NCBI GenBank assembly: GCA_902624495.1
Contig: CACNYH010000001.1
Span: 62,001 to 126,000 of the forward strand
Direction: 5' to 3'
DNA from: an uncultured Pelagibacteraceae bacterium
GTDB lineage: Bacteria; Pseudomonadota; Alphaproteobacteria; Pelagibacterales; Pelagibacteraceae
DNA: 64,000 bases
Every line of letters starts with the position of its first letter. Position 1 is the first letter of the stretch. This document shows, in pieces, positions 26,039 through 43,110 of the stretch. The notes beneath the pieces are model-generated. The model was not told the DNA's origin and made no database searches. It worked only from the letters and a program-made list of their open reading frames with translations. Made by a program: the position numbers and the translations under genes.

Positions 26039-26078
26039 AAAAAGGCCTAGTGAAAAATCACTAGGCCTTTTTTTTTAA
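26039..26078 (+). terminator. Rho-independent terminator-like hairpin between SBP and permease genes
   Basis: AAAAAGGCCTAGTGA-AAAA-TCACTAGGCCTTTTT, 15-bp perfect stem followed by a T run. Confidence 0.9.
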
Positions 26079-34212: not shown

Positions 34213-34461
34213 ATGAATTTCTTTGTTTATATGCTCAAATCTTTGGGCAAAAATCCCGTAACATATGTTGGTTACACAAATGATTTAAAAAAAAGAATCA
34301 ATCTCCATAATAATAATAAAGGAGCAAAATTTACCAGAGGACGTAAATGGAAACTCATTTATAAGGAAAAACTTAATTCAAAAAAAGAGGCAATTTCTAG
34401 AGAATATTATATAAAGAAAAATAGAGTATTAAGAAATAAAATTAAGGAAACAGTTAAGTGA
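34213..34461 (+). CDS. GIY-YIG nuclease superfamily protein
   Basis: FVYMLKSLG...TYVGYTNDLKKRINLHNNNKGAKFTRGRKWKLIYKE. Confidence 0.92.
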   Translation: MNFFVYMLKSLGKNPVTYVGYTNDLKKRINLHNNNKGAKFTRGRKWKLIYKEKLNSKKEAISREYYIKKNRVLRNKIKETVK

Positions 34462-36587
34462 AAATAGCAATTTTATTACCCTATAAAGAAAATTTTTCAC
34501 CTCAGTACCCTGGTGCCGTCTCTTTATTTGTAAACGAGACATCAAAAATTAGCAAATATAAAAAAAAAATTGTTGTATTTGGTTCTACAGATTTTAAACA
34601 AAAATTTAAACTCAAATATATTAATATAGATATTAGAAAAAATCCCTTTGAAAGCCAAACAAAACATTATGTGAACGAATTTATTAAATTACAAAATTCA
34701 CAAAACTTTTCAATCATAGAAATCCATAATAGACCAAGTTACATAAACATATTATCAAAAAAAATTAAAAATAAAGTTTTTTCTTTGTATTTTCACAATG
34801 ACCCTTTATCTATGAACGGTTCAAAAACTGTTAAAGATAGAAAGTTGTTATTAAAATCTTGTTATAAAATAATATTTAACAGTAATTGGTCAAAAAAAAG
34901 ATTTTTAGAAGGTCTAGAAAATAAATTTGTTAATAGCAATAAGTTGGTTGTTTTCTTTCAGTCAGCAAAAAGAAATAATTTGAAAGTAATAAAGAATAAA
35001 AAAAATTGGATAACCTTTGTAGGAAAATTGAATAAGGCAAAAGGGTACGATGTATTTGCTAAAGTAATCATAAAAATACTTAAAAGATTTCCTAATTGGA
35101 AGGCTAAGATAATCGGAGACGAAAAGAGAGAGAAAATAGATGTAAATCATAAGAATGCCGATATTTTAGGATTTTTAAATCACAATAAAGTTCTTAAAAT
35201 TTTTGAACAAACAAGTATAGCTGTAGCTTGTTCAAGATGGGAGGAGCCTTTTGGAAGAACAAGTTTAGAAGCTTCAGCAAATGGGTGTGCTGTAATTATA
35301 ACAAATAAGGGTGGTCTGCCTGAAACTGTTACAAATGCTAAAATAATGAAAACTCTTACAGCTAAAAGTTTAGAAAAAAATATAATTCAATTAATAAAAG
35401 AAAAAAATTTAAGATTGAATCTTCAAAAACTTTCTATAGAAAATTTTTATTTAACACATAAATTTGTAACTGAAAAAATTGATTTATACAGATCTGAAAA
35501 ATTTAAAACTTTAAATCTTTTTTCTACAAAAAAAAATAGAAGCAACCTAAGAATTCTTCACATAACTAATTTTAACGAAAGACTAGATGGCAGGCTTTTT
35601 TTTAATACTGGAAGAAGAATAAACAATGGTTTTATTAGACAAGGTCACAGTGTTTTGGGTTTTAGCGATAGAGATATTCAAAAATATTACAAGTCTATTA
35701 CAGATTTCAAGGGGGCCAAAACTTTAAATGATAAACTAAAAAAGACCTGCTACAACTATAAGCCTGATTTAATAATACTCGGTCATGCAGATCTTATTTC
35801 TTCTGATCAAATAGCAGAACTAAGAGAAGACTATCCAAATACAAGATTTGGTCAGTGGTTTCTTGACCCTTTAAATAAAAAGGGGCCTGACTTTGAGAGA
35901 AATAAGAAAAGAATACTTGATAAAATTAAATTTGTTGATGCATCATTTCTCACAACAAGTCCGGATGTTCTTAATTTTTTAAATCCGGAAAATTGTTTTT
36001 TTATACCTAATCCGTCAGATAAATCTTTTGAAATTTTAAATAATTTTAATAGATCTTGTAATGTCGATGTTTTTTTTGCATTAAGTCATGGCGTTCACAG
36101 AGGTGTATTAAAATCTGGTAAAACAGATGATAGAATAAGTTTTTTGAGAGATTTAACAAATAAAACTCCAGATGTAAAATTTGATCTTTATGGAATAGAC
36201 AAGGTTCAGCCAATTTGGGCTGATCATTATTTTAAAACGATATCAAACGCTAAAATGGGTTTAAATTTAAGTAGGGGTGAAGCAATTAAATACTATAGTA
36301 GTGATAGAATTACTCAAATAGTAGGTAACGGTTTGGTGTGCTTAATTGATGAAAAAACTAAATATCAAAATTTTTTTAATGAAAATGAGATGGTTTTTTA
36401 CAGGAATACGAATGATTTATCAGAAAAAATTTTAAAAATATCCTCAGATGATAAACTCAGAAAAAAAATTGCTAAAAATGGTAAAATAAAATACATGAAA
36501 TTTTTTAATTCTGACCTTGTATCTAAATATATTATAGATAAAACTTTAGATATAAAATCAAAAGATAAATATTTATGGCAAAAATAA
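34458..36587 (+). CDS. Two-domain glycosyltransferase (GT4-like N-terminal plus CgeB/GT1-like C-terminal)
   Basis: N half: RWEEPFGRTSLEASANGCAVIITNKGGLPET; C half: second GT-like domain with YYSSDRITQIVGNGLVCLID. Confidence 0.8.
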   Translation: MKIAILLPYKENFSPQYPGAVSLFVNETSKISKYKKKIVVFGSTDFKQKFKLKYINIDIRKNPFESQTKHYVNEFIKLQNSQNFSIIEIHNRPSYINILSKKIKNKVFSLYFHNDPLSMNGSKTVKDRKLLLKSCYKIIFNSNWSKKRFLEGLENKFVNSNKLVVFFQSAKRNNLKVIKNKKNWITFVGKLNKAKGYDVFAKVIIKILKRFPNWKAKIIGDEKREKIDVNHKNADILGFLNHNKVLKIFEQTSIAVACSRWEEPFGRTSLEASANGCAVIITNKGGLPETVTNAKIMKTLTAKSLEKNIIQLIKEKNLRLNLQKLSIENFYLTHKFVTEKIDLYRSEKFKTLNLFSTKKNRSNLRILHITNFNERLDGRLFFNTGRRINNGFIRQGHSVLGFSDRDIQKYYKSITDFKGAKTLNDKLKKTCYNYKPDLIILGHADLISSDQIAELREDYPNTRFGQWFLDPLNKKGPDFERNKKRILDKIKFVDASFLTTSPDVLNFLNPENCFFIPNPSDKSFEILNNFNRSCNVDVFFALSHGVHRGVLKSGKTDDRISFLRDLTNKTPDVKFDLYGIDKVQPIWADHYFKTISNAKMGLNLSRGEAIKYYSSDRITQIVGNGLVCLIDEKTKYQNFFNENEMVFYRNTNDLSEKILKISSDDKLRKKIAKNGKIKYMKFFNSDLVSKYIIDKTLDIKSKDKYLWQK

Positions 36588-37621
36588 AAAAAAAAGTTGC
36601 TTTAATTTTTGGAATTACGGGACAGGATGGGTCTTACTTAGCTGAATTACTATTAAAAAAAAATTATATTATTCATGGGGTTAAAAGAAGATCCTCAAGC
36701 GCTAACACTGAGAGAGTTGATCATATATTTGACAGCATAGATTTTAGTAATAAAAATTTTTTTATTCATTATGGTGATATATCAGATAGTACTAGTACAC
36801 TAAATATTATTAATAAGATAAAACCTGATGAGATATATAATTTAGCCGCACAAAGCCATGTGAGAGTTTCATTTGATATACCTGAATATACCGCGGACAT
36901 TACTGCTTTGGGATCGTTAAGAATATTAGAAGCTATTAGAATATTAAGATTAAATAAAACAAAGTACTACCAAGCTTCAAGTTCAGAAATGTATGGATTA
37001 GTAAAAAATAAAAAATCATTAAATGAAAAAACTCCTTTTCATCCAAGATCGGTTTACGGAATTTCAAAAGTTTTTGCATATAATACAACAGTTCATTACA
37101 GAGAAGCTTATGGGATTTTTGCTTCTAATGGAATATTATTTAATCATGAGTCTCCTCGAAGAGGTCCTACGTTTGTAACAAAAAAAATTGTTCAAGGTTT
37201 AGTAAGAGTCAAACAAGGCTTACAAAAAAAAGTAACATTAGGAAATCTTTATGCAATTAGAGACTGGGGGCACGCAAAAGATTATGCTGTTTCTATGTGG
37301 AAAATCTTACAATATAAAAAACCCGATGATTGGGTAATAGCAACGAATAAAGATAATACTGTGAAAAAATTTGTAGATACCGTAGCACGAAAACTAGATA
37401 TAAAATTATCTTGGAGAGGAAAAGGAATACAAGAAAAAGGTATTGATAAAAAAACAGGTAATGTGATTGTTGATGTAGATAAGAAATTTTTTAGACCAAC
37501 TGAAGTAGATTTTTTACGGGGAGATTTTTCTAAGGCGAGAAAGTATTTGAAATGGAAACCAGCAATCTCAACAAATGAACTAATAGATGATATGATTGAA
37601 GAAGAATTATCTGTTGACTAA
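36575..37621 (+). CDS. gmd: GDP-mannose 4,6-dehydratase
   Basis: IFGITGQDGSYLAELLLKKNYIIHGVKRRSSS; AAQSHVRVSFDIPEYTADI; NHESPRRGPTFVTKKI. Confidence 0.96.
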   Translation: MAKIKKKVALIFGITGQDGSYLAELLLKKNYIIHGVKRRSSSANTERVDHIFDSIDFSNKNFFIHYGDISDSTSTLNIINKIKPDEIYNLAAQSHVRVSFDIPEYTADITALGSLRILEAIRILRLNKTKYYQASSSEMYGLVKNKKSLNEKTPFHPRSVYGISKVFAYNTTVHYREAYGIFASNGILFNHESPRRGPTFVTKKIVQGLVRVKQGLQKKVTLGNLYAIRDWGHAKDYAVSMWKILQYKKPDDWVIATNKDNTVKKFVDTVARKLDIKLSWRGKGIQEKGIDKKTGNVIVDVDKKFFRPTEVDFLRGDFSKARKYLKWKPAISTNELIDDMIEEELSVD

Positions 37622-37626
37622 TTTTT

Positions 37627-38814
37627 ATGAAAAAATATTTTTATCCGTTAGTAGAAAATCCATATAGACCTAAAGATATAAATGAAGCTATTAAAGTTCT
37701 AAAATCTTCAAAAATTACATCAGGTCCTAAAACTTTAGAATTTCAAAGTAAATTTTCAAAAAAGATAAAAACTAATTATTCTCTTTTAGTAAATTCTGGA
37801 TCTTCAGCAAACTTATTAGCAATACAATGTCTTATAAATCCTTACAGAAAAAGAAGACTTAAACATGGAGATCAAATATTGATTCCTTCATTGTGTTGGT
37901 CAACATCTTTATGGCCTATAATTCAATCAGGTCTTAAACCTAAATTTGTTGACGTAGAAAAAGAAACATTGAACTTAGACCTGAATGATCTGAGAAAGAA
38001 AATTTCCAAAAATACAAAAGGGATTATGCTTGTTCATGTCCTTGGCAACAGCACTAATATGAATGATTTAATGAATATTATAAAAAAACATAATTTGATC
38101 TTGATCGAAGACACATGTGAGTCTTTAGGAACTACTTATAAGAATAAATATTTAGGCACGTTTGGTGAATTTTCATCATTTTCATTTTATTCTTCACATC
38201 AAATATCTTCAGGTGAGGGTGGAATGATATGTTGTAAAAATGAAGAAGATTTTGAAATTATTAAATCTTTGAGAGCACACGGCTGGTCAAGAGGTTTAAA
38301 GTATGAAAAAAAAATTGCCAAAAATAATAAACAATTAGATAAAAGATTTATTTTTTATAACTCTGGCTTTAATTTAAGGTCTACAGATATTTCTGCGAGT
38401 ATTGGACTCAGTCAGTTCAAAGATTTAGATAAGTTTATAAAAGTAAGAAGAGCAAACAGAAACTTAATAATTAAATCATTTCAAAAAAAAAAGATAAATA
38501 ATTTTTTTAATATAATAAAGGAAAATAAGTATGTTAAACCCTCTTGGTTTGGAATCCCAATTTTGATTTCTAAAAGTTTAAAAAGAAATAAGATTATTAA
38601 TAATCTTGAAAAAAAAGGAGTTGAGACCAGACCAATTATTAGTGGAAACTTTTTAAAACAACCGTCTATCAAAAAATATAAACTTAATAAAAACGTGAAA
38701 ATGAAAAATGCAGAATATATTAATCAAAAAGGTTTTTTCATTGGTTTGCCTACAAAACCATTAGGGAAAGCTACGATAGAAAAACTTGCTACGACATTTG
38801 AACAAAGCATCTAA
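37627..38814 (+). CDS. RfbH/ColD-like PLP enzyme of the DegT/DnrJ/EryC1 family (candidate NDP-4-keto-6-deoxyhexose 3-dehydratase)
   Basis: NSGSSANLLAIQ, WSTSLWPIIQSGLKPKFVDVEKETLNLD, FSFYSSHQISSGEGGM with His (codon 38197-38199) at the PLP-lysine position. Confidence 0.82.
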   Translation: MKKYFYPLVENPYRPKDINEAIKVLKSSKITSGPKTLEFQSKFSKKIKTNYSLLVNSGSSANLLAIQCLINPYRKRRLKHGDQILIPSLCWSTSLWPIIQSGLKPKFVDVEKETLNLDLNDLRKKISKNTKGIMLVHVLGNSTNMNDLMNIIKKHNLILIEDTCESLGTTYKNKYLGTFGEFSSFSFYSSHQISSGEGGMICCKNEEDFEIIKSLRAHGWSRGLKYEKKIAKNNKQLDKRFIFYNSGFNLRSTDISASIGLSQFKDLDKFIKVRRANRNLIIKSFQKKKINNFFNIIKENKYVKPSWFGIPILISKSLKRNKIINNLEKKGVETRPIISGNFLKQPSIKKYKLNKNVKMKNAEYINQKGFFIGLPTKPLGKATIEKLATTFEQSI

Positions 38815-39631
38815 AAAAAAAATTGTAATAACAGGTGGAAAAGGTCTACTTGGTTCGAAATTTTATATTAAATACAAAAAACAATACAACATAATTAGGT
38901 ATCCTAATAGGATTGAACATTTCTCTAAATTTCAAAAATGGTTAAAAAAAAAGAATTTTGATTACCTTATTCATTTCGCGGCTTTAACTAAAAGTGAAAG
39001 TATAAAAAGAAAAAAAAGTCTTAATTTAATAAATGTAAAATCAACATTAAATTTAATTAAATCTATAGATAAAAGAAATATGAGAGATTTTAAATATTTT
39101 TTATTTATATCAAGTTCACATGTATATGGAACTTCGTCAAAACAAATAAAGGAAAACTTTAAAACTTCTCCAAATAACCCATATGGAGTTTCTAAGAAAA
39201 AAGTTGAGGATTTTATATTAAAAAATAGAAATAGATTTAAGTTTAAGATAGGTATCGCAAGAGTTTTTAATTCTACAGGCCCGAAACAGAAATTAGGAAA
39301 TTTTGTGCCAGACATGATTAAGAAAATTAGAAAAAATAGTTTTATAGATAACGTTAATCAATATAGAGACTTCATACATATAGATGATGTAATGGAGTCT
39401 CTTGTATTATTGATAAAAAAAAAGTTTAATAGACCAATAAATATCTCTAGTGGCAAAAAAATTAATCTTATTCGGGTTTGCAAAATTATAAACCAAACTT
39501 ATATTAAAAAAAAAATCATTTATGGAAAGACAAGAGGAAAAGATCTATATGGAGATAACAAGCTCCTGAAATCAATTGGAAAAATAAAATTTAAGAATAT
39601 TCGTCAGATTATAAAATCATATAAAAAATAA
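38786..39631 (+). CDS. NAD-dependent epimerase/dehydratase (nucleotide-sugar 4-ketoreductase candidate)
   Basis: VITGGKGLLGSKF Rossmann motif, YGVSKKK active-site YxxxK, DFIHIDDVMESL. Confidence 0.85.
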   Translation: MLRHLNKASKKKIVITGGKGLLGSKFYIKYKKQYNIIRYPNRIEHFSKFQKWLKKKNFDYLIHFAALTKSESIKRKKSLNLINVKSTLNLIKSIDKRNMRDFKYFLFISSSHVYGTSSKQIKENFKTSPNNPYGVSKKKVEDFILKNRNRFKFKIGIARVFNSTGPKQKLGNFVPDMIKKIRKNSFIDNVNQYRDFIHIDDVMESLVLLIKKKFNRPINISSGKKINLIRVCKIINQTYIKKKIIYGKTRGKDLYGDNKLLKSIGKIKFKNIRQIIKSYKK

Positions 39632-40656
39632 TGAAAAATTTTATTTTTTTTAGAACCGATAGACTAGGTGATTTTATAATAATAACCAATATTATTAAAG
39701 CAATTAAGGTTAAATATCCAAAATCTAAAATAACTGTTGTAGCGTCTCAATATAATTATCATTTCGTAAAAAAATTTAAAATTGTTGATAGAGTAATTTT
39801 ATTTAATAAAGATTATAATCTTATAAAAAAAATAGATATATTTAAGAAGATTAACGATAGAAATTATGATGTATCATTCTCAATAGATGGAAAATCATTT
39901 TCTAATTTATGCACTTTTTTTTTAAATTCGAAATTAAAACTTGGTTTAATTTATAAATCTAGTATTTTAGGAATACCTTTTTATAAACCAAACTTGTTAT
40001 TTAAAATTATATTTAATTATTTTGAGACTTTTACTAGCAAAAAATATTTACTTCAAATAGAACATTTGCCAACTAAATTGATAAATCTAGCAAATAAATT
40101 ATCTTTTAAAATTAAAAAAAAAGACAAATATTATTTCGTGCCATCAATAAAGAATAGTGATTTTAAAAAAAAATTTGGTAAATATATTAAAAATAAATTT
40201 ATCTTAATCCATTTAGATGAAAAGTGGAACGACATAAAAGATATTGAAGCAGAATTATTCAAAAATATTATTAGATTTCAGAAATTAACTAAAATGAATT
40301 TGATTATTACTTCTAAAAATAATCAAAATATATATTTTAAAAAATTTAGAGATTTTCTAGATAGAAAAGATTTAAGTAAAATCACTTTACTAAATAATTT
40401 AAACTTAAATGCAATGGAGAGATTTATTAATTACTCAGCTTTTTCAATAAGTTGTCATTCTGGTTTTTTAGTACAGATAGCTGGCTGCAATAGAACAAAA
40501 ATAATAGATATAGTAAATAAAGAGGACTATTTATGGTATAGTTGCTGGAAACCATTAAACACTAAACATAAATTTGTCTTTAAATCCAATTATGAACAAA
40601 AATTCAAAGTTGAAAAAATATTTAATAACATAGTCAAAATAAGCAAAAATTTTTAA
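39631..40656 (+). CDS. Glycosyltransferase family 9 (heptosyltransferase-like)
   Basis: FFRTDRLGDFIIITNIIKAIKVKYPKSKITVVAS; NYSAFSISCHSGFLVQIAG. Confidence 0.82.
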   Translation: MKNFIFFRTDRLGDFIIITNIIKAIKVKYPKSKITVVASQYNYHFVKKFKIVDRVILFNKDYNLIKKIDIFKKINDRNYDVSFSIDGKSFSNLCTFFLNSKLKLGLIYKSSILGIPFYKPNLLFKIIFNYFETFTSKKYLLQIEHLPTKLINLANKLSFKIKKKDKYYFVPSIKNSDFKKKFGKYIKNKFILIHLDEKWNDIKDIEAELFKNIIRFQKLTKMNLIITSKNNQNIYFKKFRDFLDRKDLSKITLLNNLNLNAMERFINYSAFSISCHSGFLVQIAGCNRTKIIDIVNKEDYLWYSCWKPLNTKHKFVFKSNYEQKFKVEKIFNNIVKISKNF

Positions 40657-40668
40657 TGAGAGCTTTTA

Positions 40669-41640
40669 ATGATTAGAATTTGGGGTACGTCTTTTAGTTT
40701 GATTGGTGACTTAATTATGAGTTTGCCTCAATTAACTTATTTTAAGAAGAAATACAGTAATTCTTATATAAATTTTGTCATACATAAAAAGATATCATAT
40801 TGTGCTCCTCTTTTTTTTAACCATCCTGATATTGACAAAATAATCATCTCAGGAGAGTGGAGTTCATTTAATTTGGATGATTATAAAATTGCTGCAGAGT
40901 GTGATATAGTTACAACTTCTTTAGATCATTCAAACAAAAAAATTTTAGATCGAAAACATAACGATAAATATTGGTATAATCATAGAAATTGTATTGAAGA
41001 GACTGCCTTGATGTCTGGTATTGCTGATTTAAATGAAATACTAACTTTAAATGAAAAAATTCCTTACCTTAATAAATGGTTTGACCCTGGATTTGAAGAT
41101 GCGCAGAAAAAGGGTGCTTATACATATGAAAAAGAAGAGTCAAAACGTAATAAAATTTTAGGTAAATCATTAGCAATATGGCCTTTTGCGGGATATGGGA
41201 GGAGTAAAAACCGTAATCCATCAGAGGAATGGTGGTGCAAATTGGTTTCAACATTAACCGATAATTCAATTAATGTTTATCATTTTGGTTATTTTAAAGA
41301 GCCTAAATTATCTGAAAATAAAAAATATTATCATAACTTAACAAACTTAGATTTTTTTAATCAAGTAAAAATTTCTTTGGGATCTAAACTTGCAATTGGT
41401 ACAGACTCGGGATCTATGTGGGTATTAGCCGCTTATAATCATCCAATGATTATATTAGGAACTAATTGGTACGATAATCATACGAATAATTTAAAAGCTA
41501 CTATTCCACCAATTAAAAATGGTGAATGTATATTTAATCAAAATAATTTTTTGAATTTAAGCACTGATGAAATTTATGATAAAATTTTATCTTATGGAGT
41601 TAAAAATGAAAATTTTATTGATAAGATATTTAAATTTTAA
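40669..41640 (+). CDS. GT9/heptosyltransferase-like protein
   Basis: SFSLIGDLIMSLPQLTYFKKKYSNSYINFV; KLAIGTDSGSMWVLAAYNHPMIILG. Confidence 0.7.
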   Translation: MIRIWGTSFSLIGDLIMSLPQLTYFKKKYSNSYINFVIHKKISYCAPLFFNHPDIDKIIISGEWSSFNLDDYKIAAECDIVTTSLDHSNKKILDRKHNDKYWYNHRNCIEETALMSGIADLNEILTLNEKIPYLNKWFDPGFEDAQKKGAYTYEKEESKRNKILGKSLAIWPFAGYGRSKNRNPSEEWWCKLVSTLTDNSINVYHFGYFKEPKLSENKKYYHNLTNLDFFNQVKISLGSKLAIGTDSGSMWVLAAYNHPMIILGTNWYDNHTNNLKATIPPIKNGECIFNQNNFLNLSTDEIYDKILSYGVKNENFIDKIFKF

Positions 41641-42583
41641 TTTTATTTAATGCGTTATTTTTAAATAAATTGGCCTCTCTTATATACCTTCGTACCATTT
41701 GTGTAGATTTATGGCCAGTCATCGCCATAATACTTCTTTCATCAGCGCCAGATTCTGCTGCAACAGTTGCAAATCCGGATCTTAAACTGTGACCTGAAAA
41801 ATTTTGATTTTCTATCCCTGCTAAGTTTAAATAATTTTTGATTATTAATACTACAGATTGATCGGTCAATCTGTAACTTGTTAATATTGACCCTTTTGCG
41901 AATCTTCTAAATATTGGCCCTGTTCTTATATTCGATAAGTATACCAAGTTCTTTAAGCTTGTAACTGGGCAATATTTTTCATTGGCAAAGTAGGGGAGTG
42001 CTTTTATCAGACCTTCTCCAAATTGATCTGTTTTAGACCTTACAAGAATTATTTTAACACCTTCGTCAACAAAATCTAAGTCTTCGTGATTTATAGATAT
42101 TAATTCTGTTCTTCTAAACCCTCCACCAAAACCAACTAGTATTAGAGTTCTATCTCTTAATTTTTTTATTTTTGGTATTCTTTGATCATCTATTATATCA
42201 ATTATTTTTTTTAAGTGATTGATTAATAACGGTTTTTTACCTGTTTGCATGGTCCCTTTTTTTCTTTTTATACCCATTAAGTTTTCAATTATAACTGGGT
42301 GTTTAGTATCCAAATAATGACCTTTAAGTTTATGGACCACTCCAATAGAAACTAATCTACGTCTAATAGTGCTTATTTTTGAGTTAGCTGAAAGATGCGT
42401 GAGATATAAAGACACAACCTTGGGTTCAGTAGGCATTGAGTTGAATCCATGTTTTGAGCAAAATGCTCCAAAATCTTTAAAATCAGATTTATAAGCTCTT
42501 AAAGTATTATCTGCTTTAGATAACTTGAGGTTGTTTAAAGTATCCTCATGAAGCTTTTTTAGATCTGTGATCAATTCATTCAT
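41630..42583 (-). CDS. Tyrosine recombinase/integrase
   Basis: Catalytic motifs R (GGGFRRTELISI), HSLRSG, GHKSTQMVRRYIRE; N-terminal SAM-like domain. Confidence 0.93.
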   Translation of the reverse strand: MNELITDLKKLHEDTLNNLKLSKADNTLRAYKSDFKDFGAFCSKHGFNSMPTEPKVVSLYLTHLSANSKISTIRRRLVSIGVVHKLKGHYLDTKHPVIIENLMGIKRKKGTMQTGKKPLLINHLKKIIDIIDDQRIPKIKKLRDRTLILVGFGGGFRRTELISINHEDLDFVDEGVKIILVRSKTDQFGEGLIKALPYFANEKYCPVTSLKNLVYLSNIRTGPIFRRFAKGSILTSYRLTDQSVVLIIKNYLNLAGIENQNFSGHSLRSGFATVAAESGADERSIMAMTGHKSTQMVRRYIREANLFKNNALNKIKI

Positions 42584-42590
42584 ATTTCAT

Positions 42591-42627
42591 TATTACTATT
42601 GATAACAATTAATTATCAATAGTAATA
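42591..42627. repeat. Perfect 15-bp inverted repeat with 7-bp spacer upstream of the integrase
   Basis: TATTACTATTGATAA-CAATTAA-TTATCAATAGTAATA read directly. Confidence 0.95.
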
Positions 42628-42643
42628 TATTAAGTGATTTTAG

Positions 42644-42835
42644 ATGTCAATACATATAATTTTAAAGTTAATGATTAAATTTATTCTTCCCTTAGTAGTA
42701 TTTATAGCTGCTGTTTACGGAATTTCGTACTTTTGGACTAACTCAAGCTCAAAAGGCAAAAAAATGATAGCTTTAGGCTTAATAATAGGCCTTATAGTGG
42801 GCATATCTTTAACAACTTACCTGATTTTTGACTAA
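42644..42835 (+). CDS. Small membrane protein, two predicted TM helices
   Basis: 63 aa with two hydrophobic stretches; ATGA-type coupling to the next gene. Confidence 0.6.
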   Translation: MSIHIILKLMIKFILPLVVFIAAVYGISYFWTNSSSKGKKMIALGLIIGLIVGISLTTYLIFD

Positions 42836-43110
42836 TGAAGTTAATTGGAACTGAGTTTCAGCTAAAAGTATGGGCTTATTTAAGGAAAATACCTCGTGGA
42901 AGCGTTAGAACCTACTCTCAAGTGGCAAAAGATATAGGAAAACCGCTCGCTATACGCGCTGTGGCCACTGCCATAGGAAAAAACCCCTATGCTCCTAAAA
43001 TACCTTGCCATAGAGTTATTAGATCCGATGGATCGCTGGGAGGCTATTCAGGCAAAGGAGGCTTAAAAACAAAGAGATTTTTACTAAAAAAAGAGGGTAT
43101 TAAGCTCTAG
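42835..43110 (+). CDS. MGMT-family protein consisting only of the alkyltransferase DNA-binding/active-site domain
   Basis: TEFQLKVWAYLRKIPRGSVRTYSQVAKDIGKPLAIRAVATAIGKNPYAPKIPCHRVIRSDGSLGGYSGK; intact PCHRV. Confidence 0.93.
   Translation: MKLIGTEFQLKVWAYLRKIPRGSVRTYSQVAKDIGKPLAIRAVATAIGKNPYAPKIPCHRVIRSDGSLGGYSGKGGLKTKRFLLKKEGIKL

Follow-up and report, generated by a model that had tools for sequence, protein, structure and literature searches.

A putative dif site beside the gene of a Cre-like recombinase at the replication terminus of SAR11 bacteria

What is the function of the long inverted repeat between a tyrosine recombinase gene (xer) and a small divergent membrane gene in an uncultured member of Pelagibacteraceae? 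The window, which is the whole stretch of 64,000 nucleotides analyzed here, contains the repeat TATTACTATTGATAA-CAATTAA-TTATCAATAGTAATA, which the original prediction had interpreted as a native target site of the adjacent recombinase, an autoregulatory operator, or a hairpin in the 5' untranslated region of its mRNA. Judging from comparisons among genome sequences, it very probably represents the dif (chromosome-dimer-resolution) site on which a Cre-like single-Xer system acts in SAR11 (Pelagibacteraceae). The features of the locus are listed in Table 1.

Table 1. Features of the xer locus (positions in the window).
Feature	Position	Strand	Remarks
xer, single Cre/Xer-like tyrosine recombinase	41630..42583	-	317 aa; PF00589, 5.8e-20
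Insertion 226-237 of allele A and specificity residues 238-261 of xer	within 41630..42583	-	
Putative dif site	42591..42627	.	Arms 42591-42605 and 42613-42627 (15 bp each); asymmetric 7-bp centre 42606-42612
Conserved core GATAATTAATTGTTATC	42601..42617	-	Inner half-sites GATAA/TTATC around TTAATNG
-10 box TATTAC of xer promoter	42622..42627	-	17 bp past the -35 box; outer end of the distal arm
-35 box TTGACA of xer promoter	42645..42650	-	TTGAC[AT]; spacing to the arm constant in relatives
Small divergent membrane protein	42671..42835	+	54 aa (likelier start) or 63 aa (ATG 42644)
Alkyltransferase-like protein (MGMT DNA-binding domain)	42835..43110	+	PF01035, 2.1e-33; conserved neighbour on the dif side

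The palindrome and its recombinase

The repeat is present exactly as first described, with two perfect 15-bp arms and a 7-bp spacer that reads TTAATTG in the direction of xer. The longest arm in first-order Markov simulations of the 138-kb contig was 11 bp, which places 15-bp arms beyond chance, and the contig has two perfect inverted repeats of at least 15 bp (spacer 3–12), namely the putative dif and a terminator. The latter (AAAAAGGCCTAGTGA...TCACTAGGCCTTTTT, window 26039-26072) is an ordinary intrinsic terminator. Even if three mismatches are allowed, the full repeat occurs as a single copy in the source genome, whose assembly is incomplete (815 kb, 48 contigs, 73%). The perfection of the arms holds for the window but not as a general trait: the sites of relatives are mostly imperfect, and the mismatch at pair 9 (counted from the outside) is conserved among them. 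The perfect pairing in the window is a local accident, unusual among relatives.

The product of xer comprises a PF00589 domain and an N-terminal SAM-like domain and possesses all six catalytic residues (R157, K184, H265, R268, H291, and Y300), which are invariant in the aligned family. It is the sole PF00589 protein found in the incomplete (73%) source genome, and nearly all genomes of the genus with a match encode one such protein. The gene is present in all 11 closed genomes of the family, as the sole PF00589 match in eight of them and together with further matches in the other three. Members of the sister family usually encode two PF00589 proteins (XerC/XerD-like) with much higher scores; they also have a canonical dif-like sequence (ATAATATATATTATGTAAA; exact in 10 of 24 genomes), of which no exact copy was found in the genus. 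The presence of one catalytically intact tyrosine recombinase in place of a XerC/XerD pair is the arrangement of a single-recombinase system.

The affiliation of the recombinase points to Cre. Its scores fall below every Xer cut-off of NCBIfam (XerD, 75.1 vs. 329.6 bits; XerC, 64.5 vs. 335.15) and amount to 40.3 bits with the XerS model (cut-off 267), and membership in XerC, XerD, or XerS was rejected because the scores are so far under the cut-offs. A profile search returned Cre first, followed by XerD, an archaeal Xer, and XerH, and a fold search with a model of moderate confidence (pLDDT 71) also returned Cre first; membership in XerH was rejected because the Cre matches were stronger in both searches. 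The protein resembles Cre more than XerC/D, and its predicted Cre-like fold is combined with a palindrome next to the gene that has a centre in the range of 6–8 bp, as in systems of the Cre/lox type.

Cre-like recombinases with a linked, lox-like site include Vika/vox, VCre, and others. Although Cre/loxP is the best structural and profile match and shares the linkage of palindrome and gene, the gene in SAR11 is family-wide, chromosomal, and located at the terminus, whereas Cre-type genes belong to phages or plasmids, and the centre of the site measures 7 bp in SAR11 and 8 in lox. XerCD/dif resembles the SAR11 system in its position at the terminus, the inner ATAA/TTAT near the exchange point, and the FtsK gamma domain, but differs in that SAR11 employs one protein and a 7-bp instead of a 6-bp centre. 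The known single-recombinase systems are XerS, XerH, XerL, and archaeal XerA (PMC5357621, PMC9765430). XerS/difSL of streptococci and lactococci and XerH/difH of Helicobacter and Campylobacter likewise rely on one tyrosine recombinase and have an AT-rich palindrome beside its gene at the terminus (PMC5357621, PMC2731167), and the linkage of site and gene that is typical of XerS and XerH is found also in SAR11. However, the SAR11 recombinase is shorter (317 aa vs. about 354–362 aa), the half-sites are different, and there are two alleles of the arms. XerL/dif of Legionellales shares with SAR11 the single recombinase, the long inverted arms, and the fact that it was overlooked by homology searches (PMC9765430), but dif and xerL of L. 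pneumophila are more than 400 kb apart (PMC9765430), whereas site and gene are adjacent in SAR11.

Conservation, promoter, and position at the terminus

The original prediction had named a lack of the repeat upstream of orthologous integrases as evidence against it. The repeat is conserved there. Within the genus, a palindrome lies directly upstream of the orthologous recombinase. The site is located just 5' of xer in all 80 loci of named relatives (single-cell genomes and MAGs of SAR11 that bear the label Pelagibacteraceae or Pelagibacterales; the region of homology at L323 begins farther downstream of the site) and in all 18 loci taken from eight genomes that span genera, and the core GATAA-TTAATNG-TTATC precedes the same recombinase gene in each genus of the family with a locus read. 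The exact core GATAATTAATNGTTATC occurs in 305 of 398 genomes of the order, with one copy each and never two (control matches, 0), and is absent from all 25 genomes of the sister family. The exact copies in the genus set adjoin xer, except in a broken assembly (G028), where the core lies at a separate place and xer begins at a contig end. Ten of the 11 closed genomes of the family have the exact core; the centre in G064 is TTTATTG. About 18% of the family genomes with a completeness of at least 80% lack the exact core, likely because of assembly gaps, since every closed genome encodes xer; some lineages could also have lost the site.

At G203:C4:50751-50767, the core and xer lie on opposite strands, which sets this genome apart from the others that were listed and checked; the centre of the site may be inverted there. 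In two drafts, xer is broken by stop codons while the site is intact (G321: L338, L342, L347; G375: L337, L341), which reflects either decay or sequencing error.

The 3' end of xer adjoins a variable region of polysaccharide synthesis (window 34458-41640) at the replication terminus, as it does in most SAR11 relatives; the opposite flank of the locus, with the alkyltransferase-like gene and a membrane transporter, is conserved in relatives. The juxtaposition with the polysaccharide region in most relatives and the sporadic occurrence of distant homologues in other Alphaproteobacteria would agree with an attachment site used by a mobile element or genomic island that an integrase drives. This is nevertheless very unlikely, because the site is single-copy, with no second att site in 305 genomes, and does not change its place within the family and, wherever this was tested, lies at the terminus. 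The lack of a second copy in any genome led us to reject an attachment site as the present role; mobility may describe the ancestry of the recombinase rather than what it does today. Distant homologues were detected in 16 of 286 other alphaproteobacterial genomes sampled (29–39% identity among those aligned). Five of the nine examined have GATAA-N6/7-TTATC 5' of the gene, with different outer bases, so that recombinases of this family appear to be characterized by a GATAA site next to the gene, and SAR11 may have adopted one of them for its Xer system. Such distant Cre-like recombinases, with the upstream motif and variable outer arms, are represented by loci L482-L488.

The dif reading is supported by the position of the site. 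In seven genomes, two of them closed, the maximum of the cumulative GC skew, which marks the terminus, is only 0.6–2.1 kb away; these genomes are related and five belong to one genus, so that they are not independent, but the closed ones (G061 and G062) represent different genera. The skew maxima and sites are located at 265,738 and 264,651 (G021), 100,155 and 101,185 (G034), 103,672 and 104,601 (G000), 40,694 and 38,659 (G015), 63,901 and 62,788 (G017), and, with a sampling density of about half or less away from the site, at 675,249 and 674,671 (G062) and 771,546 and 773,634 (G061). GC skew is also shaped by gene orientation. The median distance between dif and the skew extremum in proteobacteria is 7,277 bp (PMC2731167). 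A palindromic, non-coding, single-copy site at the GC-skew extremum is what characterizes single-recombinase dif/Xer systems. FtsK gamma domains are present in the genus, including the source genome, and in the sister family; the polar words recovered in a search for KOPS-like polarity were A-rich only.

The site also overlaps the promoter of xer, which is conserved in the alignment of relatives as TTGAC[AT]-17-TATTAY, with TATTAT in many allele-B genomes. It was not reported by a generic promoter scan, whose -10 rule demands a T at position six. Because the -10 box coincides with the outer end of the distal arm, transcription of xer should start inside the palindrome. The small membrane gene, a synteny marker outside the mechanism, had been assigned a start at 42644, which overlaps the conserved -35 box of the integrase and is therefore less likely than the ATG at 42671, where ATGATTAAATT is conserved in close relatives; this widens the gap between the two genes from the 60 bp first given to about 87 bp.

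In all lineages, the palindrome lies between promoter and start codon and overlaps the -10 box, which would suit an autoregulatory site for the recombinase or another repressor that involves no strand exchange. As the sole role of the site this is improbable: an operator has no need to sit at the GC-skew maximum, and it would leave unexplained the copies in phages away from any recombinase gene (see below) and the fact that the sole recombinase of the genome is catalytically intact. The operator is compatible with dif as a second function, and autorepression in this capacity is likely, because the palindrome and the promoter of xer overlap.

Two alleles of arms and recombinases

The arms of the putative dif occur in two alleles, A (ACTAAY...RATAGT) and B (TTCC...GGAA), with the inner half-site GATAA common to both, and both alleles are found within genera g1, g5, and g6. 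In the recombinase tree, arm type changes twice and genus 11 times among eight genera, which means that recombinases group by arm type and not by genus. In g1, allele-B loci (L016, L021, L024) match allele-A loci (L002, L003, L006) in their upstream flank and promoter; the identity runs to TATTA, beyond which the arms differ, which suggests that dif-xer cassettes have been exchanged, the junction lying at the site.

Variation in the arms is matched by variation in the recombinases. Two features are common to all type A proteins and absent from type B, namely an insertion of 12 residues (226-237) and an RL motif followed by Q (position 242); the insertion is present also in L332, which has a type A site but falls outside the main A clade (node support 0.51). 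Five fully discriminating columns fall within 24 residues (P about 1e-4), and in the predicted model, the discriminating residues are located ahead of and at the start of helix 241-254. Residue 242 aligns with R259 of Cre, a base-contacting residue, and the difference in specificity between the SAR11 alleles maps to the region aligned with it.

Among 46 distinct sites, the inner five pairs are invariant, the outer pairs vary on both sides, and pair 9 is mismatched (A-A, G-A, or A-C) in 25; of the outer arm cells, 352 of 460 are complementary, compared with 279 +/- 12 after permutation of the right arms. Arms that change on both sides, together with the position of the stem just upstream of the start codon, would also be expected of an RNA hairpin in which the ribosome-binding site of xer is masked. 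However, the mismatch inside the stem is retained in more than half of the sites, an mRNA that starts within the palindrome would lack most of the distal arm, and the same palindromes occur in intergenic DNA of phages away from any xer, which makes the hairpin, as put forward in the original prediction, extremely unlikely. Conservation upstream of xer, co-variation of the arms with the specificity region, and the position at the terminus all support the native lox- or dif-like target site that had been predicted, here a putative dif; the assignment to SAR11, the position at the terminus, and the single-Xer status go beyond the original prediction.

We infer binding, cleavage positions, FtsK activation, dimer resolution, and autorepression as follows. 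Two copies of the adjacent recombinase would bind the two arms, with the outer part (ACTAAY/RATAGT) deciding the allele and the inner GATAA being shared. After sister chromosomes have been joined into a dimer by homologous recombination, FtsK would bring two copies of dif together at the septum, the recombinase would use Y300 to cut the DNA where the asymmetric 7-bp centre meets the arms, and strand exchange would restore two monomers. Bound at dif, the recombinase probably also represses xer, whose promoter the site overlaps.

Copies in pelagiphages and implications for SAR11

Sites of the same kind occur in viruses. A scan of viral contigs for the core, which fixes the centre sequence by construction, yielded at least 115 matches, and among the matches listed, there are 40 in which four or more of the next five pairs are complementary. 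Independent scans recovered a type A palindrome in 34 stretches and, in 20, a type B site no more than 8 bp past a type A right arm. The contigs with sites encode terminase, portal, and capsid proteins, and in the cultured pelagiphages HTVC106P, HTVC035P, HTVC100P, and Greip, such sites are located in non-coding DNA close to the terminase gene; HTVC024P has only a weak match (E 0.6) and HTVC010P no matching site. Dif-like palindromes in intergenic DNA of pelagiphages near the terminase gene, often with allele A followed by allele B within about 10 bp, are found at viral loci L097, L102, L124, L150, L175, and L441-L451 and in isolates (L348, L349, L350, L477).

No homologue of the recombinase was found in the first set of phage stretches (tblastn, E 1), many of which are partial, and a search for prophages left phage portal, terminase, scaffold, and capsid proteins unmatched in 3.6 Mb of SAR11 DNA. 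The centres of the type A sites in phages vary (TTTATGA, CTTATGA, GAAATG) and differ from that of the host, which argues against simple integration at the host dif by that site. A broader scenario, which we regard as slightly more doubtful than credible, holds that XerCD/dif was replaced in SAR11 by a Cre-like, self-linked recombinase, that its two dif alleles are exchanged as dif-xer cassettes, and that SAR11 podoviruses, by carrying both alleles in tandem, make their genomes accessible to either of the host recombinases. If this is true, the tandem sites would allow integration without an integrase of the phage's own or the resolution of phage multimers.

In the survey of Carnoy and Roten (2009), P. 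ubique was stated to have no dif/Xer system, and this was taken to indicate that dif/Xer is discarded when genomes are streamlined (PMC2731167), and no later description of dif/Xer in SAR11 was found in the open-access literature (subscription journals were outside the scope). Our comparisons indicate that chromosome dimer resolution has apparently been retained in SAR11 via a different, self-linked enzyme, which would escape searches like those of the 2009 survey. The analysis offers a defined terminus site for the most abundant bacteria of the ocean, a natural pair of recombinase and site alleles with a mapped specificity region, and a possible route by which pelagiphages may use a recombinase of their host.
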